From NCBI GenBank assembly GCA_964023275.1, contig OZ029914.1, forward strand, positions 17,134,049-17,198,048: DNA of 64,000 bases, given 5' to 3'. Source of the DNA: Norana najaformis. Taxonomy: Eukaryota; Annelida; Clitellata; Crassiclitellata; Hormogastridae. Numbering within the stretch: the stretch's first letter is position 1; the number at the start of each line of letters is the position of its first letter. Shown here piece after piece: positions 37 through 60,754 of this stretch. The position numbers and the translations under genes are program-made. Below the pieces are notes generated by a model. The model searched no databases, was not told the DNA's origin, and saw only the letters and a list, made by a program, of their open reading frames with translations.

Positions 37-3000
37 CTGTAACAAAAACAACGAATAATTTCTAATGAACGTCATTCGCTGTGAACACCCTTCTAAAGTA
101 ATTATAAGGTGCTTGTGCGTCACATGAGCGCAACGAAAATAGCTTTGTTAGAATGCTTAAGCAAGAGGTTCTTTTCTCGCTTCCTTCTGTCTGGCTATAA
201 AAAAACAGCGAAACTAGGCAAACAATATATAGTCTCTACTTCAGTTAGTGCAAAATAATATAATTAAATTAATTGGCTTTATCTGTTTCAACTTGCTTAC
301 CCACCGTAGCCTGACTACTGGTAGGCATATCCCTAAACTATCGGAATTCGGTCCAGCTTCTGTTTATGATTTTTTACTACGAATTCACTTGAAGCAAACG
401 ACGATTGATGCCTTGTGTATCATGCCTATCTGAGAATTCTTTTTGGGCATTGTTTATATGCATGTGTCTGTGCGATTGTGCGTTTCTATGAGCGTGCTAA
501 GTGAACATGTGCCATGAGTATGTTTAGTTTTAGAGAATACAGATGCCAATAAGCTCACGAGGTCCGCTTTCTCATCCTCCAATTTCTGGATGAGTTCTTC
601 CTGTTGCAGAGTCTTGTAGGTTAGCTGATCCACCATTTCTTCCGCCCCCTGAGCCGCATCCACCTGAGATGAAAAATTAAAATTAAATTAAACTTGGGAA
701 TTGTAGCTGTAATCGTAAATTTGTACAGCGTCTCTTTAAGATAAACTAATCAGAGGTGTTCACTATGCTAGCCTAAATGATGTTAAAGTTTATTAAGAAC
801 AAAAGTTCATAAGTAAGCAAGCAATGTTCAAATAACTAGTGACGTCAAAATAATGGCGGGCTCCCGCACAGCCGCATCTCCATCCAGTGTTTACAGATGT
901 CATCATGTTCGAGTTTTGTCATGTACTTATACAATTATATTGCCCTTCACGTTATTGACGTTATTTCTCTGGTAATTAGATTACAAAAACAGGCTAATGT
1001 TTGAAAGCATCGTAAACTTATGTAACCAAAAACACAGGAAGATACCAACTGTCTGGTAATAATCACAATTACAATGACCTTCGAGCAGATAATAATCTAG
1101 ACTCTTTTCAGTAGATTAAACTTTCTGGCCCAGGCGATAATCAACTGAGCGTTGACACAGAGAACAACATGCGAGCTCTAACCAAACTTGTGTCAACTGT
1201 TGGCAGAGAATGCTTTCCAGAGTATGCTTTATATATTAGATGTCAATGTTTGTAATATCTGCGTTTCACCTGTTCCTTGAGTTCCAGTACCTCTCACGTG
1301 TTTCTTGAGTTTCAGTACGTCTCACCTGTTCCTTGAGTTCCAGTACTTCCTCCTGCAACTGTGCAACATCTCTCTGCAATTTCTCTTTGTCTTTTCCCAG
1401 AGACATAGCATTAGCTTTAGCGGTATCCAACTCCTTCAGGATCTTCTGATGCTCCTGCTTCTCGTCGTTGTAATGGTCTCTAATTCTTCACAAAAACATA
1501 TTTGAAACCTATTTCAGAGGTAAGCATTTAACACTGAAACATATAGGGCAAAATATGTAGATATTTTGATAATCATTCAGAACAGCAATATAAATACATA
1601 ATTCAAACTAATAGGCAACAGGAGGAAAAGGCATAACCTTTGGAAAATTCAACGCAATGTTCTCTTTCAACTGTGCAGAGGTGAGATAGAGGCATGGCAA
1701 AAGTGTCCGATTTTAACACAAAATAAATAAAAGGAGGAGAACATGAATAGAAATTTTAAAAATTGCCGAAGAACATAATCTTAAAGAAGATCAAAATGTT
1801 AATTCATAACAAACAAATCAGTGCTTACTTGACGATTGCCTCTCTTAATCGTTCGTTTTGCTGCTCCAGATGTTTTACGTTGTAGTTGCTGATACCTAGC
1901 GGATCTAATTGTCAACAGTCTCACAATTACTACATGCAATGTACAGTAAGACAAGATAAGTAAACTTTGGTTAGACAAGAACTCATGTAACACTGGTCAA
2001 CAGCATAAATGTTTCAGAGATGAAATCAGTCAATTTTGAACAAACTTACTGTACTGAATAACAATGTGCCTCTTCAGCACCTATTATAACAGGTCCTTAA
2101 AAGGCCTCACACGAATATCCAGATGCATGAATACACACATGTAAGTTTGACGACATCAACATTATTCCTTGAATATGTGGTCTCGAAGATTTTTCGACTG
2201 AATCATTGAAACGAAAACAGAAGTCCAACAGAAGGACAGCCTTTCATTTGATCAATGCAGAACCGTCATTCATATGACACATAGGGCTTTGAAACCCAAA
2301 ACTTTGGATGAAGGGCTGATGCTTCAGCAACCAGCCGCCATGCCACCAAGGAGTAAAAAGGTCAAAAGAATATTAGGTTTCTAATATAGATGCAGCAATT
2401 AGTGAACTTACATATCGGCCAACATACAAGCTAGACCACTGTATTTTGGTAACCACAAACCGTATTTTGATAACCACAAAGAGGATTGCAATTCTTGGCT
2501 TATAGATTAGTAGAGACTTTGTAGATTAGCATAGTAATCGTAATCGTAATAGTAAGCTCGAGATTTCTAAAGTGTCCACTGAAACATCAGGTATATATAT
2601 GTATGTATGCTCGTTTTTATATATCCAAACATTCATATATCACCTTTGAAAATTTGTCTTATTCTTCAACCAGAACAGTTAGGATTCAAAGTGAAAGACT
2701 GTTACAGAACGTCTAGATGGTCCAACATATGAGAAAGCGCGCCGTGTTAAATACTTCGTGGTTGTTATTGCATAAGTGAATCTGTTAGTATATAATGTGA
2801 ATCTAAGTGAATCTAAAAACAGCTTTTATTTACTTTCAAAAGCGCTGTATTCACAAGCAACTGAAGCAACAACATATTAAACAGTTGTGCCGTACAACAT
2901 AGGAAAGAACAAATCAGGGCAAATATGATAAACTTAGATTACTTGATGTTTCCAAATCTTTCTTTATGATCTCCAGATTTTCGGTTAGCGCTTCCACCTT

Positions 3001-6000: not shown

Positions 6001-9000
6001 TAAAAGCAGCAATTTACAAAATATCTGTATATATAAAGAGCCAATACTCCAATGCTAATACTTCTAAATCGAATTGCTTGAGAACATGAACAGCATAAGG
6101 TTTAGAAGTATTAGGTTGTTATATTTGCCGTTTTGCATGTGCAATATGTATTGTGCTGCCGTTAAAACTCATTTATGAGCCGTACAATTTTTACATTGAT
6201 ATCAAAATATTCGTCAGCCATCAAACGTACAGCACCTAGTCGTTCAAAACGAAGGTATAATCCATTAGATGATTTGAAGCCCTGTGAAAAACTTACTAAC
6301 TTTCTTATAGGCGGACTCAAATATCTGCACAGCATATAATAGTTATTCGAGGTAATAGATAGTAGGCCTAGATTCAGATTTATATTATTCGAATTGACAG
6401 ACAAAAGAAATGGTCTTCTTTTATAATAAAGAAGTAAATAACTAGTCTTACCCGACAAATGAGCTGAATACATCGCTAGTGTAACAACAAGAAAAGATAA
6501 AAGTTTAAAATCAAACACAATGTAAAAGGCCAAATAATAACTGTAACCATTGATTAACAGTAGATTGTGCCAGTATTTCGAACGGCATTAGGTGGCATAA
6601 TTTAAGCTGCATTTTATTCTTTAAAATAAAATTTTCATTACTTTTAAATGGTGTTCTTAGCAACACCGTTGCCCCATAACATAAAAGAAACAGTTGCGAG
6701 AAAATAAAAACAGTTCATTAAATGAAAATAAAATACCAACATTTATAGTATCATGTCTCTAAAAGTGCGACTGCATTGAGAAGTATTGTAGCTTTACGAT
6801 ATCGCATATACAAATTATCGATTAGGCCTGCAAAGGCAATTGTAATTACAATACCTAATACAGTTGCTTAATCCAACAGTTAACAGATTTCTTACTTTCT
6901 CTGGCAGTCGGAGGTTTTAGAAGTGACGTAAAGGGACGAGGTTGTTCTTTTTTGATATTCTTATCCACGTTTACGAGATTGTCGTTCGTATCATCATCGG
7001 CACAAACAGTTGGGGACACATGAGCACTTTTGGCCGATATGTTGGGTTTATGATCGCTGCCCTCTTCGACCTCGTCTCCCACAACATGGAGCTGCACGGC
7101 AACATTTATTCAATTCATTCTCTGATTCATAAAGAAAACGATCCGCGAATTTATTGTACTGGTAAATTTCTTTAGCGCCACTTACACAAAAACTACTTAG
7201 ACGCGCTCTCAGCATGAGATTCGTGTGGAAATAAGGGACTCTTTAAAACATGATCAGTATTAAAACTTCCTCTTGTCCAGTCGTTTGTCAAGCTGCCTGT
7301 ACTAAAACATTCATGCAAAATGATTTCCAGGAAGAGATCAAATTACAAATTTACTTAGGACACGATTATTAGAACCAAATGAACAAAAACGTGATTTCAA
7401 GGCAACTATTCCTTAGCTAGACCCATCAACAAAGAACAGAACATTGTGGAATGAGACTGGAGCATCTTCCAGCTGGGGTAGAGACCCGGCAACAGCAACC
7501 AGAAGATTTTGGGTTTCATGGCTTGACAACGAATGCCCAGTTCAGACATCGTGCAAACTGCAAAGCAGCATGAAAGATCATTGCCTTCGCAATCAATAAA
7601 CACAAGAATAATAAGACAAATGGCGACCAGCAGAATCTAAACATCTTCCACTGAAAAAGTTTTTGAACATGGTTAAAAGGAAATACAATTAATACATTGT
7701 ATAAGTTACATGTATAACTAAAAGTTGTCCTCCTACATGTAATGTGGATGGACCCTAACTCTGATTGGTACGCAGGCAATGATAAACAAAATTTAGAATT
7801 AATTGATAGACCAATGGACAGATATAAAAAATAGTGCAGATTGGAAGAGAATATTAGAAGACAGTTGTAATTGTAATCTGACATTTATAAAGCGCCACTT
7901 CAAGAATAGACTCATCAGAAGCGCTCCCGACCCGAACCAGTGAGACCACTGGCAAATAGTACAGACTTCAGGCGCTTGCGAAACTGCGGAAGAGACAAAC
8001 TGAGGAATACTAGCCGAAGCTCTCGGGAAAGGCGATTCCAGCTATTGGGTCCAACATAGGCAAAGCTTCTAGACTGCGCTGTAGCAGTGCGCATACGAGG
8101 GACAGTCAGAAGTCCAAGGGAGGCCGACCGGAGAGTGCTACGGCCTGGAACCAAGGAGACCGAAATGCAGAAGTTATTGCTAATGCAGTTGGCGTTAATG
8201 CGACAGAAACGTGCATTTGTTACTAACATTGTCCCAAGCTTCTACCTGAGACTGTCTGACAAACAGGCCGTGGTTTTCCCTGCAGGTGAAGTAGCAAATG
8301 CCTTGGACGGTTCCATTATTTTTGCCTTTCGGTTCATCGAGAATGATTCCAAGCCATTTGCCAGAACCTTCACAAAACAACGTTCAAATATTAACTACAA
8401 TTCAAAGAGACTAACTATAACTAAACATTTATCATCGTTATGTTATCCTGTATAACTCAAAACATTATAAAGTAACGACATTTATTCATAATGAATATTT
8501 ATTCGTTATACACAAATGTCTGTGTATAATATAGATATTTAACTCTTAAGTTTTTTGTCACGTGTAAACTATGTCTGATGATCCAGATTTACTCGTGCTA
8601 CTGAAACGACAACTAGAATTATCAAACCCGCTGTCAAACAACAGTTGATAGCGAGCAAACATAGGAATGCTCTAACTTATTCACTGGAGTTTAATCAAAT
8701 CAAATCCGCAGCCGCCTTGTTGCTGCGTCAGTTTCGGTGCCACGTAAAAATTTGGGAAGTTCACAGAAACTAGACACTAGTATCACGCAGTAAGTTACAG
8801 AACGGCGCCTCCGAGATCTTCCTAGTTAGCATATATAAAAGTCCACTTACTTGCTCGTATACATAGAACATCTAGGCATCTTGTTATTAGAAGCAACTAA
8901 CCTTTAGAAAACTGTGTGCTTCCGACAAAAGCCACTGTTCCAAGAAGACATTTGCCAAGCAGTTCAACCCTTGACCCAACTTTTATTAATCGGGAATCGG

Positions 9001-18167: not shown

Positions 18168-18264
18168 TGTAATTGTTGTAATCTGACATTTATAAAGCGC
18201 CACTTCAAGAATAGACTCATCAGAAGCGCTCCCGACCCGAACCAGTGAGACCACTGGCAAATAA
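18168..18264 (-). mobile_element. LINE-A copy, 3' part, split by the DNA transposon
   Basis: Near-identical to 7,868-7,954 (tail, GTGGCGCTTTATAAATGTC, then the CCGACCCGAACCAGTGAGAC block read on plus). It stops at ...GGCAAATAA where the transposon begins. The other half resumes at 20,618. Confidence 0.92.
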
Positions 18265-18475
18265 CACTGGACAACAAATTTTTACAAAAGTCATGTTACT
18301 GAAATGAAATTAGTCAGTTCTTATCAATTTGTATGTGCTGAACACGAATATGACAGTGAAAATGCCGAATTGGCTCTAGTTTTTTTGTAATCTGAAATGA
18401 AGTAATTTTATATCGCACAATGCATGCCAATAGTGATACACTTACAGTTAATATTTGTAAAAACCAGGTCATAGA

Positions 18476-20167
18476 CTAGTTCTTAGATTTTTTTGCCTGT
18501 CTCTTGTACAGCTGTTCGGGAGCATCTCTGCGGAGTGTCCAACAGTAGTCAGCCAACATTGTAGTGGACCATTTTCCCTGGTACCTTTGCTCCATTGTTG
18601 CGATATCTTGATGAAAACGTTCGCCATGTTCGTCACTAACCATACCACAGTTGTCAGGGAAGAAATCCAGATGGGAATGAAGGAAATGCATCTTCAGAGA
18701 CATATTGCAGCGAAATTTCTGGTACTGCTTGAGCATGTCTTCTACTAGTTCCTTGTAGTTTTCTGCCCTAACATTCCCCAGAAAGTCTGTAGACACTAGA
18801 CGAAAAGCATTCCATGCTTGTTTCGCATCACCCTCCAGCAAGTTGTTGAAGCGGTCATCTTTGAAGAGTTCTCTAATCTGACGACCCACAAAAACTCCCT
18901 CTTTAATCTTTGCTTCGCTGAGTCGAGGGAATTTTTCATGCAGGTATCGGAAAGCTGGCGAAGTGCGGTCCATGGCTTTCACGAAGTTCTTCACCAAACC
19001 TAGTTTGATGTGAAGGGGTGGTAGTAGGATTTTGTGAGCCTCGACCAGAGCTGGGTGCTGGATATTCTTCTGTCCAACTGCCATGTTTTGTCTGGGAGTC
19101 CATTCCTTCCGCACGTAGTGCAACTCTCTTGCTCGGCTATCCCACTCACACAAGAAACACATATATTTTGTATATCCTTGCTGCAGTCCCATTAAAATGG
19201 CAACTACCTTCAAATCACCACACAGGTGCCATTTGTACCTGTTATAGTCAATGGAATGCAGTAGCTGTTTTAGGTTATCGTATGTCTCTTTCATGTGGAC
19301 AGCATGCGCTAATGGAATAGATGGAAGACGGTTTCCACTGTGCAAAAGCACAGCCTTAAGACTCAGTGTTGAAGAGTCTACAAAGAGTCTCCATTCTTGT
19401 GGGTCATGAGTGATCTGTAAGGCATTCATGAGGTCGTCAATATTGGAACAGAATACCAGATTACCTTCCTTCATAAAGAAAGGTTCCAACTGCTGATGGC
19501 GCTTTCTATATGAAGTAATTGTGACATCTTCTTCTAGAAGATTCCATTGTTGGAGTCTTGATCCTAGCAATTCTGCCTTGTTTTTGGATAAGTTCAAATC
19601 ACGAACAAGGTCATTTAGTTCTTCCTGTGTTATTCTGTGTGGGGTTGATGATGCACCACAGTGAAAATCGGGATCACTGCACGCTGACGGACCAGGAGAA
19701 GAACATGTCGGCTCACCCTTGTCCTCATCAGATGAATCAAGGAAAATATATTCTGCTGGAGGTTCTGGAATAGGAAGTCCATCACCATGTGGAACTGGTC
19801 TCAATGCTGACGGAATGTTTGGGTAGACTATTGTCGACTTCTTTTGCTTCGTTATTCCACCGGAAAGAGGAGGAACCAAGCAGAAGTAACAGTCATCTAC
19901 GTGGTTGCTTTGCTCTCTCCACACCATGGGAACTGCAAACGGCATTGATGGTCTTTTGCCATTCAACCACTGTGAAAGCTGTGTTGTACATGTAGCACAG
20001 CATATATGCGGGGCCCATGGCTTGTCTTGGTCACCAACCTTGCATTCGAAGTAACCATGATATGCCTTCTTGACTTGATAAGTGATACTTTTCTTCTGGT
20101 TGGCAAATGTCACTTCCCCACAAATGTAACAAAAGTTGTCCACAGTATTTACGCACTTCCGAGGCAT
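18476..20167 (-). CDS. Putative DDE-type transposase of the CACTA-like element (563 aa)
   Basis: Uninterrupted single-exon ORF from ATG at 20,167. Residues 5-96 hold a Cys-rich N-terminal domain (C13-x2-C16, C42, C56/C57-x2/3-C60, C93-x2-C96), likely a zinc-binding DNA-recognition module. Residues ~98-178 are a Pro/Ser/acidic linker. The core from ~180 is shared with the divergent 46.5-kb copy. It carries EWRLFVDSS (D264), CGDLK (D318), YMCFLCEWDSRA (C337, C340), LPPLHIKLGL (H386), KMHFLHSHLDFFP (H494, H497, H499) and SDEHGERFHQD (E513/E516). That order suggests an RNase-H-fold nuclease with an inserted Cys2-His2 zinc site, as known in RAG1/Transib and related transposases (inference). Homologues are familiar to me only as uncharacterised animal proteins. 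Confidence 0.85.
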   Translation of the reverse strand: MPRKCVNTVDNFCYICGEVTFANQKKSITYQVKKAYHGYFECKVGDQDKPWAPHICCATCTTQLSQWLNGKRPSMPFAVPMVWREQSNHVDDCYFCLVPPLSGGITKQKKSTIVYPNIPSALRPVPHGDGLPIPEPPAEYIFLDSSDEDKGEPTCSSPGPSACSDPDFHCGASSTPHRITQEELNDLVRDLNLSKNKAELLGSRLQQWNLLEEDVTITSYRKRHQQLEPFFMKEGNLVFCSNIDDLMNALQITHDPQEWRLFVDSSTLSLKAVLLHSGNRLPSIPLAHAVHMKETYDNLKQLLHSIDYNRYKWHLCGDLKVVAILMGLQQGYTKYMCFLCEWDSRARELHYVRKEWTPRQNMAVGQKNIQHPALVEAHKILLPPLHIKLGLVKNFVKAMDRTSPAFRYLHEKFPRLSEAKIKEGVFVGRQIRELFKDDRFNNLLEGDAKQAWNAFRLVSTDFLGNVRAENYKELVEDMLKQYQKFRCNMSLKMHFLHSHLDFFPDNCGMVSDEHGERFHQDIATMEQRYQGKWSTTMLADYCWTLRRDAPEQLYKRQAKKSKN

Positions 20168-20254
20168 TACTGTTCTGTATTGTATCTAAATGGATAAAGT
20201 AATAATAGTTTTATAAAACAGTAACTTAAACTGTCTCGCACAAAGTCTGTAATA

Positions 20255-20320
20255 TTGTAAATGCTCAACCGTTCCGACTCGCTTTATATAGTACACTGCT
20301 GACGTCATCTTACGTCAGCA
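20255..20320 (-). promoter_or_regulatory. TATA box and paired CRE-like sites of the transposase gene
   Basis: On the minus strand, CTATATAAAG (20,282-20,291) lies about 115-125 bp upstream of the ATG. Just upstream of it are TGACGTCA (20,300-20,307) and TGACGTAA (20,310-20,317). The arrangement is CRE/ATF-like sites then TATA. These motifs also form an imperfect palindrome, GCTGACGT...ACGTCAGC. Confidence 0.6.
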
Positions 20321-20617
20321 GCCGACTGGCTGTAGTTTTACATTGCATCAGAAAATGACGTAATCAACTGTGCATGATGTGTCCATGATGGGATTATGCA
20401 ATGAGGTGGAATATTACATCATTCTAGACTTATTTAGGATATTGTCGCAGTCCTACTGCATAAATTTACATGGTGAAACATAAAAAATGAACTATATGAA
20501 ATATTTTCAAAACGAGAGCCAATAAAAATTTTTTATGGTTATATTCGTGTTCAGCACACCAAGATGCTACACATTAGGGCCTTTTCCAGTCAGTAACGAT
20601 TTCTATGTTGACCAGTG

Positions 20618-20766
20618 TAATACAGACTTCAGGCGCTTGAGAAGAGGAAGAGACAAACTGAGGAATACTAGCCGGAGCTCTCGGGAAAGGCGATTCCAGC
20701 TATTGGGTCCAACATAGGCAAAGCTTCTAGACTGCGCTGTAGCAGTGCGCATACGAGGGACAGTCT
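20618..20766 (-). mobile_element. LINE-A copy, 5' part, split by the DNA transposon
   Basis: Resumes TAATACAGACTTCAGGCGCT and runs colinear with 7,957-8,105 (GAAAGGCGATTCCAGCTATT, CAAAGCTTCTAGACTGCGCT) to ...GAGGGACAGTC, where the 5' truncation meets AT-rich DNA. Confidence 0.92.
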
Positions 20767-31784: not shown

Positions 31785-31985
31785 TACATATGTATATCAT
31801 ATGCTTACAAATGTGCAGGCCTTCACATATATGTAATAAAATGCAACATATGCATGGAATTACGAACACCCATGGATAGAGATTTCATAAAATCTGTAAC
31901 ATTTATATCTGTTGCGATTACACGGAAATTTTTAGCACACTGGAAGCCAGGCAAGAGACGGAAGCGCTTAAATAACATTCTCTTG

Positions 31986-32315
31986 ACCCGACCCGACCCG
32001 ACCCGACCCGACCCGACCCGACCCGACCCGACCCGACCCGACCCGACCCGACCCGACCCGACCCGACCCGACCCGACCCGACCCGACCCGACCCGACCCG
32101 ACCCGACCCGACCCGACCCGACCCGACCCGACCCGACCCGACCCGACCCGACCCGACCCGACCCGACCCGACCCGACCCGACCCGACCCGACCCGACCCG
32201 ACCCGACCCGACCCGACCCGACCCGACCCGACCCGACCCGACCCGACCCGACCCGACCCGACCCGACCCGACCCGACCCGACCCGACCCGACCCGACCCG
32301 ACCCGACCTGACCTG
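31986..32315. repeat. (ACCCG)n pentanucleotide array
   Basis: 64 perfect ACCCG units (31,986-32,305) then two ACCTG units. The minus strand is GGGTC repeated, with G-triplets spaced by two bases. Stop-free on both strands; not a gene. Confidence 0.98.
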
Positions 32316-32524
32316 ACAAGTAAAGGCTTTAGCGGCAGAACTCTGAACCCGTGGAAACGTTTTGGTTTACTCTGACTGACGCAACTTAGAAACTTTTTTT
32401 ACTTCTCGATAATAAAACGTTGCCGAATCCTTTAATTTTGTAGGAAGCCCTTTAAAATAAACATGTAAAGGGATTTGGAATGACATCACCGTCTTCTGGT
32501 CGCCAGTGGGGTTTCGTGATTCAT

Positions 32525-32980
32525 GGAATTGCGTATGTATGTGTATATATCTATACATATACGTTTAAGTTTGTATATCTGTGTACCGACGTACATACGT
32601 ATGTATGTACTTATGTACAAATGTATGCATGCATGTAAGTATGTATGTATGCATGCATGTATGTACGAGTGTCTATCTGTCTATCTATATGTATGTATGT
32701 ATGTATTTATTTATGTTTATACTTATGTATGCATGTATTCATATGTGTATGTATATATGTGGGCATCTGCATGTATGTATGTATTTATTTATGTATGTAT
32801 TGTTTGCATATATATATGTATGTTTATATGCATATATGTATGTAAATATGTATGCACGTATATATGCATGTTTGTATGTATGTTTGTTTGTATGCAAATA
32901 TGTATGTATGTATATATGCATGTATGTATTTATGTATGTATGTATGTATGCATGTATTCGTGTGAAAATGCATGCATTAA
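32525..32980. repeat. (TATG)n-type array
   Basis: Imperfect TATG units with GCATGC and TATA variants. Confidence 0.93.
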
Positions 32981-33164
32981 TGTGTGTATCCTGTTATTTG
33001 GTGATAGATCTATGTATGGTCGTATACGTGTCTATATGGAGCTTGGTATTATTGGGCGCTGAGAGTCATGCGCCGCAGCTATTAGTCAAGTGCAGGACGA
33101 TGTCGCCGGCGCCGCCTTTGTATATTCAGTCAACAGCGCCGCACATCCATGTCGGCGTCCCTTG

Positions 33165-33560
33165 AACGAGAGGGAGGTAGCGACAGAGATAGGAAGAGAG
33201 ATGGGAAGAGAAAGAGAGAGGGAGAGGAGATGGGGAGATGGGTGGAAAAGCAGCAGGGGAGAAGTGAAGTGAGGGAGAGAGAAAAAGAGGGAGAGAGAGG
33301 GAGATAGATGTAGAATTTGGAAAGTGATAGGTAGGAGAGAGGTGAGGAGGGAGAGTGGAGAGAGGAAGAAAGTGGAGAGAGAGATGGGGAGAGAGAGGGA
33401 GAAATAAGGAGAGGGAAAAAGAGAGAAGAAGGGAGTGAGGGTTGGAAGTAGGAAGGGACGGAGGGGGAGATAGGGAAGGAGGGAGAAAGAGAAAGGGATA
33501 AACTAGAGAAAATAGAAATGAAGACTGGAGGATGGGAGAGGAGTAATGAAGGGAAAGATA
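33165..33560. repeat. ~400-bp purine-rich tract
   Basis: GAGA/GGGAGA-rich plus strand with few pyrimidines. Paired in opposite sense with the pyrimidine tract at 33,750. Confidence 0.92.
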
Positions 33561-33749
33561 TAGAGAGATGGGGCGTCATGCGAGCGTGGGAGGGGTCGGA
33601 GTGTCGCCCCAGTTGCAGGGAGAAAATATCACCAGATTAGCGAATGATTAATGACCGTTGCTGTTATCGGTACCTGATGTCCGGTGATGGACGCTAGCTG
33701 GACACGGAATTCCAAGCGTCGTCGCCCGTCCCAATGGACGCCATAAGTT

Positions 33750-34125
33750 GCTCGACCTCTCCCTTCTCTATCTCTCTCTCCTCTCTTTCTTTCTTTCACT
33801 CTCTTTTTCTGTCTCTTTATTCCTCTCTCTCCTCTCTATTTCTCTTTCTCTCTTTCTCTGTCTCTTTAATCCTCTCCCTCTCCTCTCTCTCTTTCTCCTC
33901 TGTCTCTTTTTCTCTCTTTCACTCTCTCTCACTCTCTCTCTCTTTCCCTCTCCTCTGTCTCCCCCTTTATTTCTCTCTCTATCCTCTCTATCTGTCTCTT
34001 TCTCTGTCTCTCTGTCTCTCTGTGTCTTTGTCTCTTTCTCCTCTATTTCTTTCTTTCCTTCTCTCTCTTCCTCTCTCTCCTCTCTGTCTGTCTGTCTGTC
34101 TCTTTATCTCCACCTTCTCTCTGTG
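33750..34125. repeat. ~375-bp pyrimidine-rich tract
   Basis: TCTCTC/CCTCTC-rich plus strand, ending with TGTC repeats. The 190 bp between it and the purine tract is CpG-rich unique sequence. Confidence 0.92.
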
Positions 34126-34349
34126 TTGCCCGATGATCAGCGACAGTCTATGGGCGCATGTCGGCGGCGTCGATTCGAAGAAGAACTGCACGGAGAGAAC
34201 AGAGACAGCCAGACAAAAGGACGTGACAGACGCGCACACAGACAGAAACAGACACAAGGACAAACTATAAGAAAGACAGCACAGATAGGCAGAATGACTG
34301 GCGGGCAGATCGATGAGCTAGACATCATTATATATATAAATAATATATA

Positions 34350-34500
34350 TATATATAGAAGAGACAGAGAGAGACAGAGAGAGACAGAGAGAGACAGAGA
34401 GAGACAGAGAGACAAACAGACAGACAGAGAGAGAGAGAGAGGTGAAAGAGGGACGGAAGGGCACAGAGAATAGAGAGACAATGAGACACTTAGACACAAT
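34350..34500. repeat. (GAGACA)n array
   Basis: GAGACAGA repeats then GAGA-rich sequence, preceded by a TATATA stretch. Confidence 0.9.
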
Positions 34501-34539
34501 GACACAGAGATTAATCGGAAGCAGAATAAGACCCACCCG

Positions 34540-34610
34540 CATCCGGACATTTCCCCCGGACAATTCCTCTGGACGTTTCCCCTAGAGTAATTCCCCCCGG
34601 ACGTTTCCCC
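34540..34610. repeat. Four degenerate CCGGACGTTTCCCC units
   Basis: Spaced about 20 bp apart; short and decayed. Confidence 0.75.
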
Positions 34611-34619
34611 AACTTATGC

Positions 34620-35339
34620 GTAATGAATTAGAAATGTGTAAGCAATTTAAAATATGTAAGATGCCACGACGGATACGACGAAGAGGAACCATTTGTACAG
34701 AAGCCGCTTGCCTGAGTTGCGGCATTTGTTGTGGTGTTTTTCCTCCGTTTCGGCGGCTTTTTTTGGTATAGTTTCTGTCATTCAGTAATTCAGTTCTGGC
34801 TTGATCGGGCGCTCATGGATATGCTCATACTGGGAGCTGACAATAGTTCCAACTTTCACCTTTATTTTCGTCTTGCACTCTGCTGTGTGAAACCTTTTCC
34901 ACGACCTAGTCGTTTTTCACACACATAGCTTCCCACGTTGTCTGCCAAGTTCTTTTACTTCATATGACTCTGACTATTAGACACTACTTTAGTCTTCCCA
35001 CCAACTTTGTGAACTGTCTACATTCTAACTATGATAGTCCTAGACTGATAAGGTCCTACATTTCACTCCATTCACGTCCATTCTATAGAATCATGATTAT
35101 GATAGACTCTTCGCAAATTGTAGGCACCTATACCAAGCAATATTGTCAATCAGTAATACAACGAGCATAGGGGCTTAAACTTCATTTTCAGATTTAAATC
35201 AATGATCAACGAAACAACGAAGCAACGAATGAATAATACACTAGAGAGATATAGATATGTAAGAATATATACATATGACGTTCATAAAAAACGCATGCAT
35301 ATCATTCATTCATATATTTATACATATATTTATACATAT
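34620..35339. other. No recognised gene; AT-rich with TATA/TACA-rich end
   Basis: Open frames of 60-70 codons lack motifs. The last ~60 bp are TATTTATACATA repeats leading into the solo LTR. Confidence 0.5.
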
Positions 35340-35730
35340 TGTTAGAGTCGGCCCATATGGAAGACCCGGATGTAAGGAGTGGTTGCCCCAGAAAACCTAT
35401 AAAAGGGGATGTTTCCTTCAGTTTGCCGAGCTTGGCTAGTTAAGTTAAGATAGGCCGAGTCCTACGTGGCTCTGTGTTCTGTTAGTTGCCAAGACTCCGT
35501 TTATCGAGTTTATGTAAAGGTCCTCCGTCTGTTGGAGGAATCTGAGAGGTTTTTGTGTTCGAGTTGTTCTCTGATGAAAAGACTTCGACTTTTGGCTTCA
35601 AAACAGCCGTCGTCGTTCTGGCTGATGTCAGGTATTCTGTTGTACGTGTTATAACCTCTTGCAAGTGTAAATATACATTTTATCTAAACCCAAGCGAGTT
35701 ATATACTTTGAATAGGAGTAGCACGTAACA
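35340..35730 (+). mobile_element. Solo LTR 2 (fossil), with 4-bp target duplication
   Basis: 391 bp starting TGTTAGAGTC and ending GCACGTAACA, with the TG...CA ends of an LTR. A CCTATAAAAGG box is present. ATAT flanks it on both sides (35,336-35,339 and 35,731-35,734). It is closely matched, inverted, at 61,933-62,358. Superfamily not assigned; looks relatively little decayed. Confidence 0.8.
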
Positions 35731-35756
35731 ATATACTCATACATGCATACAAGCTC

Positions 35757-36060
35757 GAAATATTTTACAGCGCCCTACGAAAGCTAAGTCGCGGAAACCA
35801 GCTTATTCCAAACGCCAAGTCAAACCAAAACCGATAGACAGGAAGGGTTCGGTTCCAGGTCAAGATCCAAGAGTCAGGCATGCAGACAGTTGTTGCAGAC
35901 GGCTGTGTTGAATGTGTTTGGAATTGAACCGGAAAGTGAGATAAGGGGGAGTGGAAGAACCAGGATAGGATCTGCGGAAGAGGAGTGTTTTCAGTTTTGA
36001 GTGAAAGACCTGCAGGAGAGATTGCATGAGCTGAACGCATATTGTTTATATGTATGGCCA
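35757..36060 (-). mobile_element. LINE-D 3' end, copy 3
   Basis: Minus strand: GCGCTGTAAAATATT-type end, CGAAAGCTAAGTCGCGG (plus), CAGGTCAAGATCCAAGAGTC, and upstream the ISAGLSLKTENT frame. Matches copies at 16.5 and 29.2 kb. Confidence 0.82.
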
Positions 36061-36280
36061 ACGATTTTAAATCAAGGCTGGTTGACCTGAGTAGCTTATC
36101 ATACCCGACCAGGTGACCGTCACCCGCTGCCGGTCGTTGATCGTGAGACGTACGGACGGAGAAGAGGCAACGACGGCCGAGATTGTCTCTGTTGCCGCTG
36201 CAATCGCCGCTGCTTTTACGACTAATTCGTGGCGACATGCCATAGCAGCGTTAGAACGACGTCGAGGGTTTGCCCGTCGA

Positions 36281-36790
36281 ACCACCCACCCATCGACCAA
36301 ACCATCGACCTACCCACCTATCGACCCACCCACCCATCCACTCACCCACCCATCGACCCAACCATCGACCCACTCACCCATCGACCCACCCACCCATCGA
36401 CCCACCCATCGACTCGCCAACCCATCGACCCACCCACCCATCAACCCATTTACCTACCCTCTTACTCACCCACCCATCGACCCACCCACCATCGACCCAC
36501 CCACTCATCGACCCATTTACCTACCCTCTTACTAACCCACTCATCGACCCACCCACCCATCGACCCACCCACCATCGACCCATTTACCTACCCTCTTACT
36601 CACCTACCCATCGACCCACCCACCCATCGATCCACCCATCGACCCACCCATCGACTCACCAACCCATAGACCCACCCACCCATCAACCCATTTACCTACC
36701 CTCTTACTCACCCACCCATCGACCCACCCACCATCGACCCACCCACTAATCGACCCATTTACCCACCCTCGTACTCACCCACCCATCGAC
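36281..36790. repeat. Minisatellite of CCCACCCATCGA units with higher-order structure
   Basis: Short units CGACCCACCCACCCAT grouped into blocks that recur with CATTTACCTACCCTCTTACT. Three frames read Thr/Pro/His-rich without stops; these are repeat artefacts. Confidence 0.94.
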
Positions 36791-37019
36791 TGAACGAACG
36801 AAGGTTCCCGAACGAAAACTACACCATGAACCTGGAACTATAAGGATTTCGTGGCGTAGGTTGGACCAGGTGCTGCTAACGATATCTTATTACTGTTAAT
36901 AGTGCGCAGTGAAAACACGAAAGGCGAACTGGCATCAATGGCATCAGTTGCACGGACGATTTGCTAAATGAGATCAGACGACGCAACCGTTGCACTACTT
37001 TGAACAAATTAACATCCGG

Positions 37020-37300
37020 CGCCACATTAAAGGAAGAGGAAAAGGACGAGGAATGGGAGGAATTAGACACGAAGGCAGAGTAAGAGAGGCAAAAGGAGAA
37101 GGTGGACAGCGCGGAACAAACGAAGAAAAGCAGCAGGGGATAAAGATGAGACGAGGACATGAAAACAAGAGAATAAGAGAAGGAGAAAGAAGAGGAGAAG
37201 GAGGATGATAGAGAAAACGAAATGATATAACCGGGAAAAGCAGATGGAAAAACACAGAAGGATAATATATATTAGAAAAAGAAGAATAAATAGAATGATA
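37020..37300. repeat. Purine-rich tract
   Basis: AGGAAGAGGAAAAGG-type sequence with a purine bias on plus. No gene recognised. Confidence 0.7.
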
Positions 37301-37379
37301 AAATAGATCAATGCTGTAGGATTATAAATGTAAAAGTACATTTCAGAGATTTCAATCTAGCACGGTTCGGTACGGAAAC

Positions 37380-37480
37380 ATTAACTGGCGTGGTACCCAT
37401 TCAAACGGGCAGCGGTGGTTAAGGATCTCACCCGATAAACTCCCTGAATAATGAGCAGGGTCGAGGCCATACGGTCTCTA
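37380..37480 (+). repeat. Dispersed ~100-bp repeat, copy 1
   Basis: CATTCAAACGGGCAGCGGTG ... GATCTCACCCGATAAA ... GAGCAGGGTCGAGGCCATA. Second copy at 38,985-39,075 in the same orientation. Confidence 0.75.
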
Positions 37481-37776
37481 TTGAAAAACGGATTATAGAC
37501 TATAAGACGTACGAGCCAAAGACTGGACAGAAAGGGAGAAGTAAGAAATGCAGTAATCAGGAAAGGATGAGGAAGAACTGGAAAATGATACAAAGAAAGT
37601 CGGAGGATAGAAAGCACGGAAAGAAAAAAGTGGAGTAAGAAATACAGTAGCGGGAAAATAAGAAAGGAGGAAAGTAAAGGCGGGATAAGAAAGAAGATAC
37701 AAGCATGTGTTGTTAATTGGTCGCTTTTGATACGAATGTGTTCTATCTGTGCTCTGATGTACGCAAATTGTACATT

Positions 37777-38283
37777 GCATTCTATACATGCTATGATGTA
37801 CACTCATAGTACATTGTGTTCTGCCTATGCTTTGCTTTACGCTCATTGTACATTGTGTTATGCCTATGCTCTGATGTACACTCATTGTACATTGTGTTCT
37901 GCCTATGCTCTGATGTACACTCATTGTACATTGTGTTCTGCCTATGCTCTGATGTACACTCATTGTACATTGTGTTCTGCCTATGCTCTGATGTACACTC
38001 ATTGTACATTGTGTTCTGCCTATGCTTTGCTTTACGCTCATTGTACATTGTGTTCTGCCTATGCTCTGATGTACGCTCATTGTACATTGTGTTCTGCCTA
38101 TGCTCTGATGTACACTCATTGTACATTGTGTTCTGCCTATGCTCTGATGTACACTCATTGTACATTGTGTTCTGCCTATGCTCTGATGTACACTCATTGT
38201 ACATTGTGTTCTGCCTATGCTCTGATGTACACTCATTGTACATTGTGTTCTGCCTATGCTCTGATGTACACTCATTGTACATT
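37777..38283. repeat. 39-bp minisatellite, about 13 units
   Basis: Unit TTCTGCCTATGCTCTGATGT plus ACACTCATTGTACATTGTG. A variant unit (GCTTTGCTTTACGCTC) occurs at about 37,827 and again about five units later at about 38,022, indicating block duplication. Because 39 is a multiple of 3, several frames stay open for about 160-215 codons on both strands. Confidence 0.96.
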
Positions 38284-38984
38284 CCTGTCGTCCTATACAC
38301 GTGGTAATTACGGTCAAACAAAAAAGCTAATCGGCGAAAAGATCGATGCATCGCCAAGGGAGTCCTAGTTCTGCTTACGTCGCCAACAAAGTCAGTAAGT
38401 AAGATAACTGTACAGATCGTACGCTGGCTTGTCATTTGATTCGATGCTGATTAGGAACTACTGCGATCAAACAGTTCATCATGTAACATCACTTCGAATA
38501 ATTAATTACTTTTAGCTTCTGAAGTACGCATTGCATCAATACAACAGAATACAAGAATACCTTACAATACAATACAAGATTACATTACGATACAGTGACA
38601 TTCAGTGCAAATAAAATACAATACAAAGTGCAATACAGTATAACAAAGCAGAAAACAATACAATAAAATGCAACAGAAATTTGATGTTGGCCTCTTACAA
38701 TTCCTAGATTTGCACTTTGAAGGCTGGTATGAAGAAAAATTGTGAACCACAACCAGAATAGAGGAGGTAAGAACAGAATTTTTCAGCTGCATTCACCAAA
38801 GAGGCAAATACAGACCCGGAAGCTCTTGTCGCAGTTTGTTAGGTAACCTATTCCGCTGGCCTGGTTAGCTACAGGCGTACGTCAAGGCTCCTCTGAGTAT
38901 GAGGATGGCGGTTTGCGTCCCGTTCTTTCATATAAGAGATTTGAATCTCGGGCTAGCACGTCCAGTACTCGGGGACCTTAAATT

Positions 38985-46193: not shown

Positions 46194-47696
46194 CACTGGC
46201 CAACACATAATTTGTTGCCTCAAATGTTAGAACTGTTTCTGGGTATATTTGACCTGCTGATTCCAGAAAAGGCACCAGTTTTCTCCCAGCAGGTCTAGTT
46301 TTCGAGATATAGAACATTATGCCATATACCAGTCCTTGCCTCTGCTCGCCCATAAAACATAAGGCTATAGCTATAATTATGTAGTGCTCAATTTATTATG
46401 TGATACACTAAATAAACATAATAATACAAATACTTAAAAGAAAATGGTAGTACCTGAAACTGTACTTATATGATACCAAACAGAACAAGTTTGTTATAAA
46501 AATTTCAAGTCATTCGACACCGAAGAAGCTCCTTTTGTACGATTTCCGAGTGTGGCATCTGCCGGAACAATCGCGCATAATATTCCAGCAATAGTCTGCC
46601 ATCATGTGTGCATCCCATCTTCCTTGATATCGATTTTCCATTGTTTTGATGTCTTGGTGAAATCTTTCACCTTGCTCTTCGCTGAAGTCACCAAGATTCT
46701 CTGGAAAGCGATCTAAGTGACTGTGGAGATAATGGACTTTAATGCTCATGTTGCAGCCAAGCTTGTTGAAATGAAGAAGCATATCCTCTACTAGTTGTGC
46801 ATAATTGTCTGCCTTCTTGTTGCCAAGAAAATTTTTAGTTACAAGAACAAAGGAAGACCAGGCACAAGATTCGATTTCATTCATTGATGGTATGAAAAGT
46901 GGGTCATTCATAAGTTGCCTGATCTGTGGACCATCGAAGATTCCAGCCTTCAATTTTTCCATTGTAATTCCTGGTAACTTGTGTACTATGTATTCGAAGC
47001 ATGAACTTTCTTTATTCAAAGCCCTGACAAATTCTTTCATCAGGCCTAGCTTTATATGTAGTGGTGGCAGTATGATCCTATCTCGTGCCACCAAAGATTC
47101 CTTGATTACATTTTGAGCTCCAACCACCATGTCTTTCCTCGAAGGCCAATCTTTTCTTGTCCAATGTTCATGCTTGGCTCTACTGTCCCAAAGACACAAA
47201 AAGCAGGGATACTTTGTGTAGCCACTTTGTTGACCAAGGAGGAAATTTACCATCTTCAAGTCTACACAAATTACCCATTGATGTTCTTTGTATTTTATCT
47301 TTTCCAGTACTAAACAGATGGCATTGTACTCTTCTTTCATCCTGGTGGAGTGACCGATTGGAATAGAACCAAATTTGTTGCCGTTATTTAAAAGCACACA
47401 TTTCAGACTACGTTTTGAACTGTCGATAAAAAGACGCCACTCATCTGGGCTGTAATCCGACAGACCAATTTTCTTCAATAAGTTGCTGATGTCATTACAG
47501 AATACTAGGTTGTTGTCTTCGGTAAAGAATGGCAGCAAATCCTTTTCTCTGTTTCTATGAATTGTAATTTTCGTTCCAGGCTGAAGTGCATTCTTTTCCT
47601 TTAGTCTGGACGCAAGCAATTCAGAGGACTCTTTGGAAAGATTTAAGTCCCTGATCAGATCACTCAACTCGACTGATACCTTGGGCTTTGTGACAA
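46194..47696 (-). mobile_element. Second CACTA-like element, truncated at its transposase 5' side
   Basis: The left end CACTGGCCAACA at 46,194 matches the terminal repeat of the 18-kb element. A similarly placed subterminal block (CCTGCTGATTCCAG ... GGTCTAGTTTT) lies 60-110 bp inside. Homology stops at about 47,696, where a LINE/SINE-type tail (GGCGCTATAGAAGTC) begins. The right end and N-terminal zinc-finger region are missing. Confidence 0.75.
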
Positions 47697-47712
47697 CGGC
47701 GCTATAGAAGTC
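46510..47712 (-). pseudogene. Transposase of the second CACTA-like element, N-terminally truncated (~385 aa left)
   Basis: Open frame with no ATG at its start; the homologous region begins VSVELSDLIRDLNLSK and ends at the stop at 46,510. It keeps all core motifs of the 563-aa protein: EWRLFIDSS, CVDLK, KYPCFLCLWDSRA, LPPLHIKLGL, KVHYLHSHLDRFPE and EEQGERFHQDIKTME, plus RYQG-W...MADYCW. By eye about half the residues match the 18-kb protein, so it represents another subfamily. The first ~170 residues, including the Cys-rich domain, are absent, so it is presumably not functional alone. The core is nonetheless uninterrupted. Confidence 0.8.
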
Positions 47713-56640: not shown

Positions 56641-57356
56641 TTTTTTAAATTTTATTTTGAGCAATCGGAGCAATCGGGCGTTTCACAATCATTCGCCAGA
56701 TGTCTATGGCTAACGTTGTAGTTGCTTCATTTACGCAACTGTTAAACGGCAGAATTACTAGTGTTTTCTTAAACGGCTCTAAAAGTCTGAAGGTGGCTTC
56801 AACCATCAACCGCTCATAAGAGCCTTCGTCGTGGAGGCGCTACATGTGTGCATGTGTTCGCTTGGGTGAATAGTTCCAACATTCCTGAGAGAATGCAAGG
56901 CTTTAGCACAATCACACATACAAGGCAATGATGTTTTAAGACATATTGCAAAGATCCCATACGAGCACACTGTCACAATTAGGTACCATTATAAGAGCCC
57001 AATTGTAAGATACCCAATACATTCTTCAATAATCGCTGCTTCAAATGGCCTTTGTGCAAGTCTTGTGTACATATTCCAGCCACATGATAATTTCTGTGCA
57101 GAAATTTGCCAGAAACAAAAATAGGGCCTCATCATCGTGGCAAGTTTTTATAGCGAAGCGTAGAGTACATATATGTTCAGTCCTCACGTCAAGAAGAAAT
57201 CTGGTCCGAAAGCGATTTGATGAAGACGTATCAGATTCTGTTTGCATTATGGATAAAACTGCTTTCCGCTTTCACGATGGAAGGCGTCCGATATAATTAT
57301 ATCCATCTGTCTAATAGCGGATTGGAAAAGTTACACCTATTGCAATTCACTGTGTA

Positions 57357-57936
57357 GACTCTTCTGGCCCATTTGGAGTCTCTTCTTGGCCATTTGGCGC
57401 CTCGTCTGGCCAATTTGGAACCCATTCTGCCCCATTTGGAGCCTCTTCTGCCAAATTTGGAGCTTCATCTGGCCCATTTGGAGCCTCTTCTGCCAAATTT
57501 GGAGCTTCATCTGGGCCATTTGGAGCCTCTTCTGGGCCATTTGGAGCCTCTTTTGGCCCATTTGAAGCCTCTTCTGCCAAATTTGGAGCTTCATCTGTGC
57601 CATTTGGAGCCTCTTCTGGGCCATTTGGAGCCTCTTTTGGCCCATTTGAAGCCTCTTCTGCCAAATTTGGAGCTTCATCTGTGCCATTTGGAGCCTCTTC
57701 TGGCCCATTTGGAGTCTCTTCTTAGCCATTTGGCGCCTCGTCTGGCCAATTTGGAGACTCTTCTGCCAAATTTGGAGCTTCATCTGGGCCATTTGGAGCC
57801 TCTTCTGGGCCATTTGGAGCCTCTTCTGGGCCATTTGAAGCCTCTTCTGGGCATTTGGAGCCTCTTTTGGCCCATTTGGAGCCTCTTTTGGTCCATTTGA
57901 AGCCTCTTCTGGCCCATTTGAAGCCCCGTCTGGCTT
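57357..57936. repeat. 21-bp minisatellite, about 27 units
   Basis: Unit TTCTGGCCCATTTGGAGCCT plus C, with variant units (TTCTGCCAAATTTGGAGCTT plus C) arranged in a repeating higher-order order. With 21 = 3 x 7, the minus strand reads a seven-residue repeat (MAQKRLQ) for 165 codons and plus reads LEPLLxH repeats for 175. No gene evidence beyond openness. Confidence 0.95.
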
Positions 57937-57939
57937 AGT

Positions 57940-59160
57940 TGGTGGCCACGCAATTCATGTCGTGCTTAAGTTTTTATGATAGTATGATAGGCTGTATGGT
58001 TTAGTGACCTACTTTGTATGTGTTGGCCTTTTATCGTCGCGTTTAGAGTTCGAATCCAGCTTAGCATTTAGACAACTTATAATTCACTCTCAAAAACTAT
58101 GTTGCCTGATTGTTGCCCATAGTACTTTTCCTGTAGGATTATCTTTTTGGGAAATCTTCCACTGCATATGCATATTCTTATTTTGTGATATCCAGTTGAA
58201 CAGTCATTTCCAGCTTGCCAGAAGCTTTTAGACGGAGTAAAGCACATTTGGCTGGTTCTCAAAAGACGCAAATGTATTTGTCTTCTTTTTATACAATCAG
58301 CGGCTAGGAAGTGAGCAACAAAATGACCTGATGATTTACTTTGTGGTTTATTTATGCTTTAAAAGTTGGATGCCTGGCTCGTATGGTACTTGTTTACTAC
58401 TTGATTTTCCCATAATTATCTCAGATAAGATCATAAGTAGAGAGCTGCACAAATTTGTCAAAATCATCTGGTAAAACCCATATCAAAGACCACGAAATAA
58501 CAGCATATAACACGAATATTGCAATCATTACACTGGTTGCCATCCAGTATATAATCCAGTTTAAAATCTCTTATAGTTTACAATTAATAGGCATTAGGCC
58601 TATGTTAAAATCAACCACCTACCTTAATCTGCTTCTTGCTCAAACCTTATACAAATAGATAACAGACCCTATGTTGCGCTCGATTAGCGGACACAAACGT
58701 CCCTAGGAGGGATTAATTCCAGCCAGAAGAAGAGCCGACACACGACTCTTGCAGTGTATGGCCCAAGAACTAGGTTGGGCTTTCCGCTTTCTCAGTCTGG
58801 GCTGGCCCAGGGCTGTAGAATTCACTGCACAGTTCGGCGAGTTCTTTAATATCAATCAGACCTAAACTTAAGACTTGCCTTTTCAACTTGGTTACCTACC
58901 GTCGCCTGATTTCTGGTTTCTCTTAACTATCAGATTTCGATCAGGCTTACCCAAAGGGTTTTGATTTTTGACTGCGGTTTCGTTTCAACCGACCGTCGAA
59001 AGATAACATGTACATTATAATAACGATGCTATGAGGTCGTTAGATTGGATTAGAACATATCACACTCAGGCAAGATCAAAGCAGATCAGATCCGAATATT
59101 GGATTAGATTAGATTAGGCACAAGTATTGTACCGTAATGTATTTGCCTATTTACAGTATA
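57940..59160. other. Mostly unique sequence, no gene recognised
   Basis: At 58,695-58,729 there is a segment, AGGAGGGATTAATTCCAGCC, that recurs inverted at 63,942-63,968. At 58,885-59,005 a CTACCGTCGCCTG...GATTTTTGACTG block resembles 294-420. Both look like old dispersed repeats. Confidence 0.45.
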
Positions 59161-59164
59161 TAGT

Positions 59165-59400
59165 ACCGCTCACAGAACACACTACTCAGAGGCCCCCTGG
59201 GTATAAGAACCCCGAGAAATTGTAAGGCAACCAGCCGAAACAGTCCTGTCTTCCAACAGCCGCCTGAGCTCGATTAGTAAGCGGAAGACTGTTCCAGTTT
59301 GACAGGTCCACCAGCGCAAAACCCTATGCTGCGCTTTCGAAGTCCTAACCCCGGAACAAGGAGACCAAAAGACGAAGAGTCCGTCCACAATTCGCAGAGA
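59165..59400 (-). mobile_element. Old LINE-like C-terminal/3' fragment
   Basis: Minus frames contain a NWNSLPLTN-like segment in the position of the conserved WN-LP of LINE tails. Strongly decayed. Confidence 0.35.
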
Positions 59401-59910
59401 AAGAACATTTTACAGCGAAATTTACAAACGTTCGGTAGGAAAAAACCGATGGCATTACCAACGCACAGACGGCCCACATAAAGGGACTTCTAGCAATAAT
59501 CCAGGGGGATAGATAGTGCTGATGTACTGGCCTATGTCCCTTCTTCGTCTCTCCTAACATATTCCAGTGTCATAGTTTGCCATGACGAAGCCCACCACGT
59601 CAATTGCCGCAACAAAGCGTCTCATCACTTCCTTAGCGATTCGTTTCCTGCATATTAGTTTCGACTCATTGAAGGTTCAATGCGACTCTTATGGCACAGC
59701 GTCAGCCGTCGAAATGACTCGGAATGTCTCGCATATATCTTCCTAGTCGGATAGAAATGAGCGACTTCGCCGAAATTTGGCGCTATTAAAGTATAACTGA
59801 CAACCCTGCTGAGGTGGTCCGATCGTCGTGGGTTGATGTTTGCAGGAGTGCGACCTTGGACCATACGACGCTGGTTGTTGGGGATAAAGCTTAATCTAAT
59901 CATTTACGCC

Positions 59911-59977
59911 TACGATTCCTCGCTCAGCCGATGGACATATGGCGTGTTAACAAATGTCTTACTTACTTACTTCCTAA
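59911..59977 (+). repeat. Short dispersed repeat with (ACTT)n tail, second copy
   Basis: CGATTCCTCGCTCAGCCGAT, CATATGGCGTGTTAACAAATG, TTACTTACTTACTTC; pairs with 39,346-39,412. Confidence 0.6.
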
Positions 59978-60000
59978 TCATCAGAAATAGCTTTACAGCT

Positions 60001-60690
60001 GAAGGACGGAAGCGAGAGAAGGACGGAAGCGAGAGAAGGACGGAAGCGAGAGAAGGACGGAAGCGAGAGAAGGACGGAAGCGAGAGAAGGACGGAAGCGA
60101 GAGAAGGACGGAAGCGAGAGAAGGACGGAAGCGAGAGAAGGACGGAAGCGAGAGAAGGACGGAAGCGAGAGAAGGACGGAAGCGAGAGAAGGACGGAAGC
60201 GAGAGAAGGACGGAAGCGAGAGAAGGACGGAAGCGAGAGAAGGACGGAAGCGAGAGAAGGACGGAAGCGAGAGAAGGACGGAAGCGAGAGAAGGACGGAA
60301 GCGAGAGAAGGACGGAAGCGAGAGAAGGACGGAAGCGAGAGAAGGACGGAAGCGAGAGAAGGACGGAAGCGAGAGAAGGACGGAAGCGAGAGAAGGACGG
60401 AAGCGAGAGAAGGACGGAAGCGAGAGAAGGACGGAAGCGAGAGAAGGACGGAAGCGAGAGAAGGACGGAAGCGAGAGAAGGACGGAAGCGAGAGAAGGAC
60501 GGAAGCGAGAGAAGGACGGAAGCGAGAGAAGGACGGAAGCGAGAGAAGGACGGAAGCGAGAGAAGGACGGAAGCGAGAGAAGGACGGAAGCGAGAGAAGG
60601 ACGGAAGCGAGAGAAGGACGGAAGCGAGAGAAGGACGGAAGCGAGAGAAGGACGGAAGCGAGAGAGGGACGGAAGCGAGAGAAGGACGGA
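60001..60690. repeat. 17-bp tandem repeat, about 40 near-identical units
   Basis: Unit GACGGAAGCGAGAGAAG, nearly invariant. As 17 is not a multiple of 3, all three phases are read in turn (a 17-residue protein period). No stop occurs in any phase on either strand, giving open frames of 290 (plus) and 369 (minus) codons. Confidence 0.98.
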
Positions 60691-60754
60691 TGGGCAGTGT
60701 CATGATATGAATATTACACCTACGGGATTGCATTGTTAAAAAGCTGCAACCAAA

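Follow-up and report, generated by a model that had tools for sequence, protein, structure and literature searches.

A probable Chapaev3 transposon inside a LINE of Norana najaformis, with a recent burst of copies and loosely kept target-site duplications

The window analyzed here is a whole stretch of 64,000 nucleotides from the annelid Norana najaformis (assembly GCA_964023275.1, contig OZ029914.1, positions 17,134,049 to 17,198,048 of the forward strand). In it, a 2,353-bp transposon with an open reading frame (ORF) of 563 amino acids interrupts what we take to be a long interspersed nuclear element (LINE). To which group of transposons does it belong, and is it still moving? The original prediction regarded it as CACTA-like, with uncharacterised proteins as a transposase lineage and possible recent activity, an interpretation that is partly supported. 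Judged by published features, the element is very probably a cut-and-paste DNA transposon of the Chapaev3 group. The locus is best read as part of a Chapaev3 family that shows a striking burst of recent copies and whose target-site duplication is loosely kept for unexplained reasons. The group was published in 2007–2008 (Kapitonov and Jurka, Repbase Reports) and includes Garfield, Merrow and Conan, as cited in PMC4079192 and PMC4411706.

The element and its empty site

The element occupies positions 18265–20617, in minus orientation as judged from its ORF. It opens with CACTGG at 18265 and closes with CCAGTG at 20617. The terminal inverted repeats are CACTGGACAACA (18265–18276, plus strand) and CACTGGTCAACA (20606–20617, minus strand), and 11 of their outer 12 bp match. 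The 18-bp subterminal block TGTGCTGAACACGAATAT (18334–18351, plus strand) pairs with an inverted partner at 20541–20558 (minus strand). These are its one direct and one inverted occurrence in the window, and they lie 69 and 59 bp inward from the two termini. The trinucleotide TAA is found on both sides, at 18262–18264 with A before it and at 20618–20620 with T after it. The ORF (18476–20167, minus strand) contains no stop, and the ORF list has no second ORF of at least 150 aa in the element. The inverted ends, the subterminal block, the flanking TAA and the uninterrupted ORF had all been predicted, and all were borne out. The sequence CACTGGNCAACA, with at most one mismatch, has five occurrences in the window, of which two are the element's own ends; 0.94 are expected, and none of 100 shuffles reached five.

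The flanks are colinear parts of one repeat, as had been claimed. This repeat is taken for a LINE because, in one frame, it gives what looks like the C-terminal tail of a LINE reverse transcriptase. An uninterrupted copy lies at 7871–8107 (plus strand), and the joined flanks are 96% identical to it over 237 columns. The predicted empty site of exact length with one substitution holds at the insertion site itself; about 20 bp away, the interrupted copy has 3 bases fewer. The genome (608,420,607 bp in 17 contigs) was also searched with the joined flanks, and 40 LINE copies out of 1,527 candidates were scored. All 40 cover the 159 bases fully at 97–98% identity, each spanning 162 bases. The four of them that were read in sequence contain GGCAAATAATACAG and GGCAAATAATACAGACTTC, the latter being the joined site with no substitution; the 3 extra bases are at the same place, outside the site. 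Since at the site these copies match exactly the two flanks joined with one TAA removed, the target was ATAAT. The complete element with its ends, duplication, ORF and empty site is thus confirmed: it is a DNA transposon with a TAA duplication, placed where the probable LINE encodes its C-terminus.

CAC ends and 3-bp duplications are also found in EnSpm/CACTA elements. These belong to the same CMC superfamily and have C(2)C and H(3-4)H motifs (PMC12730594). An EnSpm/CACTA element in the strict sense is nevertheless highly unlikely here. A TWA site between A and T is a published Chapaev3 trait, which the window copy shows (ATAA...TAAT) and which is the commonest context in this family. The plan of about 2.3 kb and 560 aa is that of Garfield_BM (2,289 bp, 556 aa in two exons). 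The size typical of Chapaev3, though not defining for it, is about 2.3 kb and 560 aa, usually in one exon, and the present element has 2,353 bp and 563 aa in one ORF. The name CACTA-like therefore stands at the level of the CMC superfamily; below it, the features, including the inverted CAC...GTG ends, fit Chapaev3.

Copies, age and target-site duplications

The element is abundant in the genome. An internal 31-mer has 952 exact copies (486 and 466 on the two strands), the 31-mer of the low-coordinate end 779 (447 and 332), and that of the other end 886 (496 and 390). The reversed patterns of all three, used as controls, gave 0. The internal 31-mer was chosen as identical in all 42 two-ended copies described below; because the low-coordinate 31-mer is exact in only 38 of these, the end counts are somewhat too low. 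Since the internal sequence is about as frequent as the ends, most recent copies carry transposase sequence and are not miniature derivatives. If all were full length, the 952 copies would make up about 0.37% of the genome. The end patterns are unevenly split by strand, as are the ends preceded by ATWA (212 and 143), and the internal pattern is even; this is perhaps a counting artefact.

For comparison of individual copies, the genome was searched with the protein, and 77 copies, the best of 6,566 candidates, were scored. No stop was seen in 73 of them. Sixty were fetched (17 were left out), and 18 of the 60 without exact CACTGG or CCAGTG were dropped from the duplication and divergence counts, leaving 42. 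Sampling by best protein matches favors well-preserved copies and biases both the stop count and the low divergence. Among the fetched copies, exact CACTGG is kept in 51 and exact CCAGTG in 49, so that homologous copies consistently lacking such ends, which would have spoken against the original prediction, were not found. Thirteen fetched copies lack 36–305 bp at one end and one lacks a little at both; elsewhere they are 99.3–99.7% identical. These are L184, L185, L190, L198, L205, L210, L212, L214, L215, L225, L227, L228, L234 and L236, the last being the one deficient at both ends. In L210, an inverted 144-bp end piece lies about 0.8 kb away.

The 42 copies differ pairwise by 0–0.94% (mean 0.51%). 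Each 2,353-bp copy has on average 6.2 substitutions from the majority (0.27%), with 173 singleton versus 27 shared columns. Mostly singleton differences form the star shape of a recent burst, in a sample biased to well-preserved copies. The 120 flanks, each of 300 bp, include 29 pairs with partial matches (43–224 columns, 73–94% identity). The flanks share only such partial matches, as from shared repeats, and therefore the copies are separate insertions rather than one duplicated block. The family has grown to about a thousand copies, many dating from a recent burst. Purifying selection was also considered: 60 non-synonymous and 65 synonymous codon differences are seen among the 42 copies, while 3.8 to 1 is expected under neutrality. 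It is not accepted as evidence, since the copies had been chosen as the best matches to the protein.

The near-identical copies and the star shape bear out the predicted recent activity at the level of the family. The window copy may itself be competent, with the reservation that it has Arg at position 429, where 119 of 120 homologues have Pro. In the 60 genomic copies, including that of the window, the position is Pro in 57, Arg in 2 and unreadable in 1. We tentatively propose, at somewhat less than even chance, a presently active Chapaev3 of about a thousand copies, the sampled ones 0.27% from the majority, which mostly keep the transposase gene and whose relaxed joining often gives 4-bp duplications or 1–2 extra end bases.

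The evidence for relaxed joining comes from the junctions. ATWA precedes 355 of the 779 element ends found as exact 31-mers. An exact 3-bp duplication is present in 23 of the 42 two-ended copies; shuffling the right flanks gave a mean of 7.7 and a maximum of 20 in 5,000 trials. The other 19 copies deviate. Ten of them have a 4-bp repeat, direct or offset by 1–2 bases on one side (2.7 by shuffling, reached in 0 of 5,000), and for 3-bp offset repeats the count is 9 (4.9 by shuffling, reached in 1%). Near-identical copies with 4-bp duplications, or with 1–2 extra bases between a longer repeat and the end, are L188, L189, L191, L195, L200, L203, L206, L207, L218, L232 and L237. Decay does not explain the deviating junctions, because the copies are too alike. 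They are read as a probable looseness of cutting or joining, some ends carrying 1–2 extra bases. Recombination between copies could be the source of a part of them.

The TWA duplication is thus kept less strictly across the family than published for Chapaev3. The 19 deviating copies, together with an assignment made by published features, would suit a further CMC/Transib-like lineage close to Chapaev3 yet outside it, and PMC12730594 calls it uncertain how Plavaka, ESTA and Lanisha stand to CMC. Such a lineage is highly unlikely all the same, as the testable Chapaev3 features are present both in the window copy and in most of the family. The original prediction had named several copies without a 3-bp duplication as a refuting result. 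Literally, this was observed; the transposon reading is not overturned, because of the 23 exact duplications, the 355 ATWA ends and the exact empty site of the window copy.

The transposase and its relatives

The sequence profiles are of little help in classifying the protein. In Pfam, each ORF gave one weak, irrelevant match below the cut-off; for the 563-aa protein, NCBIfam profiles gave nothing useful, and a sequence search of the PDB gave no useful match, with none to RAG1 or HzTransib. C337/C340, L385/H386, D264 and D318 are conserved in 122 of 122 aligned sequences, and H494, H499, E513 and E516 in 120. These residues are also placed on predicted strands and helices. The ORF thus has the C(2)C, LH and H(4)H motifs of Chapaev3 together with a DDE triad (D264, D318, and E513 or E516). 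Its N-terminus is conserved and rich in Cys and His (C5, C13, C16, H54, C56, C57, C60, H89, C93, C96), as described from the sequence itself; the Chapaev3 trait looked for in this region is a Chapa zinc finger.

Because of the ends, the TWA site, the size and the motifs, the protein fits Chapaev3 transposases. The predicted transposase lineage stands insofar as the ORF is the transposase of the element; it is not the "cargo" and not an unclassified lineage, as it fits the known Chapaev3.

The predicted structure of residues 176–557 matches the core of RAG1, the recombinase of our immune system, and the HzTransib transposase, and contains an RNase H core of the RAG1 type. The 563-aa protein is accordingly predicted to be a DDE transposase with a RAG1/Transib-type core. 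The conservation of acidic and zinc-ligand-like residues is apparent from the alignment; DNA binding and catalysis, in which E513 or E516 would be the catalytic Glu, hairpin chemistry, and present activity are inferred. The fold match might suggest a Transib or RAG-like transposon. This is extremely improbable, since in the fold alignments the protein is just 10–15% identical to RAG1, BbRAGL and HzTransib, and five flanking bases, the length duplicated by Transib, agree in 0 of 42 copies, versus three in 23. On the favored reading, the Chapaev3 transposase would recognize the CACTGG ends, cut the element out and insert it at a staggered break, most often at ATWAT, which would yield the TWA duplication. 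On this reading the window copy landed in the LINE.

The protein search gave 2,011 relatives at E<=0.001 among 8,000 scored candidates, the family being named in databases, if at all, "uncharacterized" or "hypothetical". For 110 of the 120 relatives listed, the longest contig is 1.8–3.3 kb, close to the length of a single element, as would suit isolated repeats in assemblies of short reads. Those listed from a poison frog, a firefly and a moth are 56–60% identical to the window ORF. The patchy spread of these and of the relatives of the second ORF given below would fit the horizontal transfers that PMC4079192 reports for Chapaev3. No relative was found in viral contigs searched with the protein and two alignments, nor in bacterial and archaeal genomes; viral protein structures gave 244 matches, none at E<=0.001. 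The bracovirus copy named in PMC4079192 was not met in these searches. Single matches to the end pattern in contig collections (56 and at least 115) are ascribed to chance: of these 171, none has paired ends and none encodes the ORF.

Two related sequences were found elsewhere in the window. A second, divergent Chapaev3-type remnant (46194–47712) has a 385-aa ORF at 46510–47667 (minus strand) with 50% amino acid identity, in which family residues 1–166 were not found. In a tree of 24 rows, it is split from the window element by a branch with 100/100 support. Its relatives listed at 64–74% identity come from the same firefly, from three other beetles, a psyllid, a worm lizard and one bacterial metagenome-assembled-genome record, which is taken for contamination. 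A CACTGGNCAACA end lies 316 bp past its stop (CACTGGCCAACA, 46194–46205, plus strand, preceded by TTC and not TWA) and is taken as its own, so that the association of the ORF with a CACTGG-type end would recur. A solitary Chapaev3-like end, TAA-CACTGGTCAACA, lies at 1991–2002 (plus strand), and over the next 60 bp its identity to the end at 18265 is 70%. No ORF and no visible partner end accompany it at 1991–2078. Besides, long tandem-repeat tracts at 31854–38435 and 57337–60705 contain repetitive ORFs on both strands (e.g., DPTRP, SIGRTQCTMSVHQ and EGRKREKDGSERRTEAR units).

Comparison with known transposons

These results tie an "uncharacterized" or "hypothetical" protein family to a known transposon group. 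The structural model supports a RAG1/Transib core in Chapaev3, a kinship already proposed in PMC4411706. A genome with recent Chapaev3 spread makes a test of activity practical; no Chapaev3 transposition assay was found by title or opening of the abstract among the open-licence papers listed, which is weak evidence for its absence. If the family is presently active, the RAG1 recombinase would have in it a living relative that is neither a Transib nor a RAG-like element.

The transposase shares its predicted fold over residues 176–557 with the RAG1 core and HzTransib. The spacings of 19 and 22 residues from D318 to C337 and C340 are also those of D708, C727 and C730 in RAG1. In contrast, no sequence match was found, the element has one long ORF, and its duplication is 3 bp instead of the 5 bp of Transib. 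With EnSpm/CACTA it has in common the CMC superfamily, the CAC ends and the 3-bp duplications, all of which are also found in Chapaev3 and are not diagnostic, while the TWA preference and the size, compared as features, fit Chapaev3. Within Chapaev3, the copies counted here exceed the highest figures of Table 1 in PMC4079192 (>254 for Merrow_PM and 281 for ConanN2_AC), which were counted by another method, and 19 of 42 deviate from the exact 3-bp duplication. In its CAC...GTG ends, the TWA duplication between A and T, the C(2)C, LH and H(4)H motifs, the single exon seen in most members, and a size of about 2.3 kb with about 556–563 aa, the element resembles the known Chapaev3 transposons.
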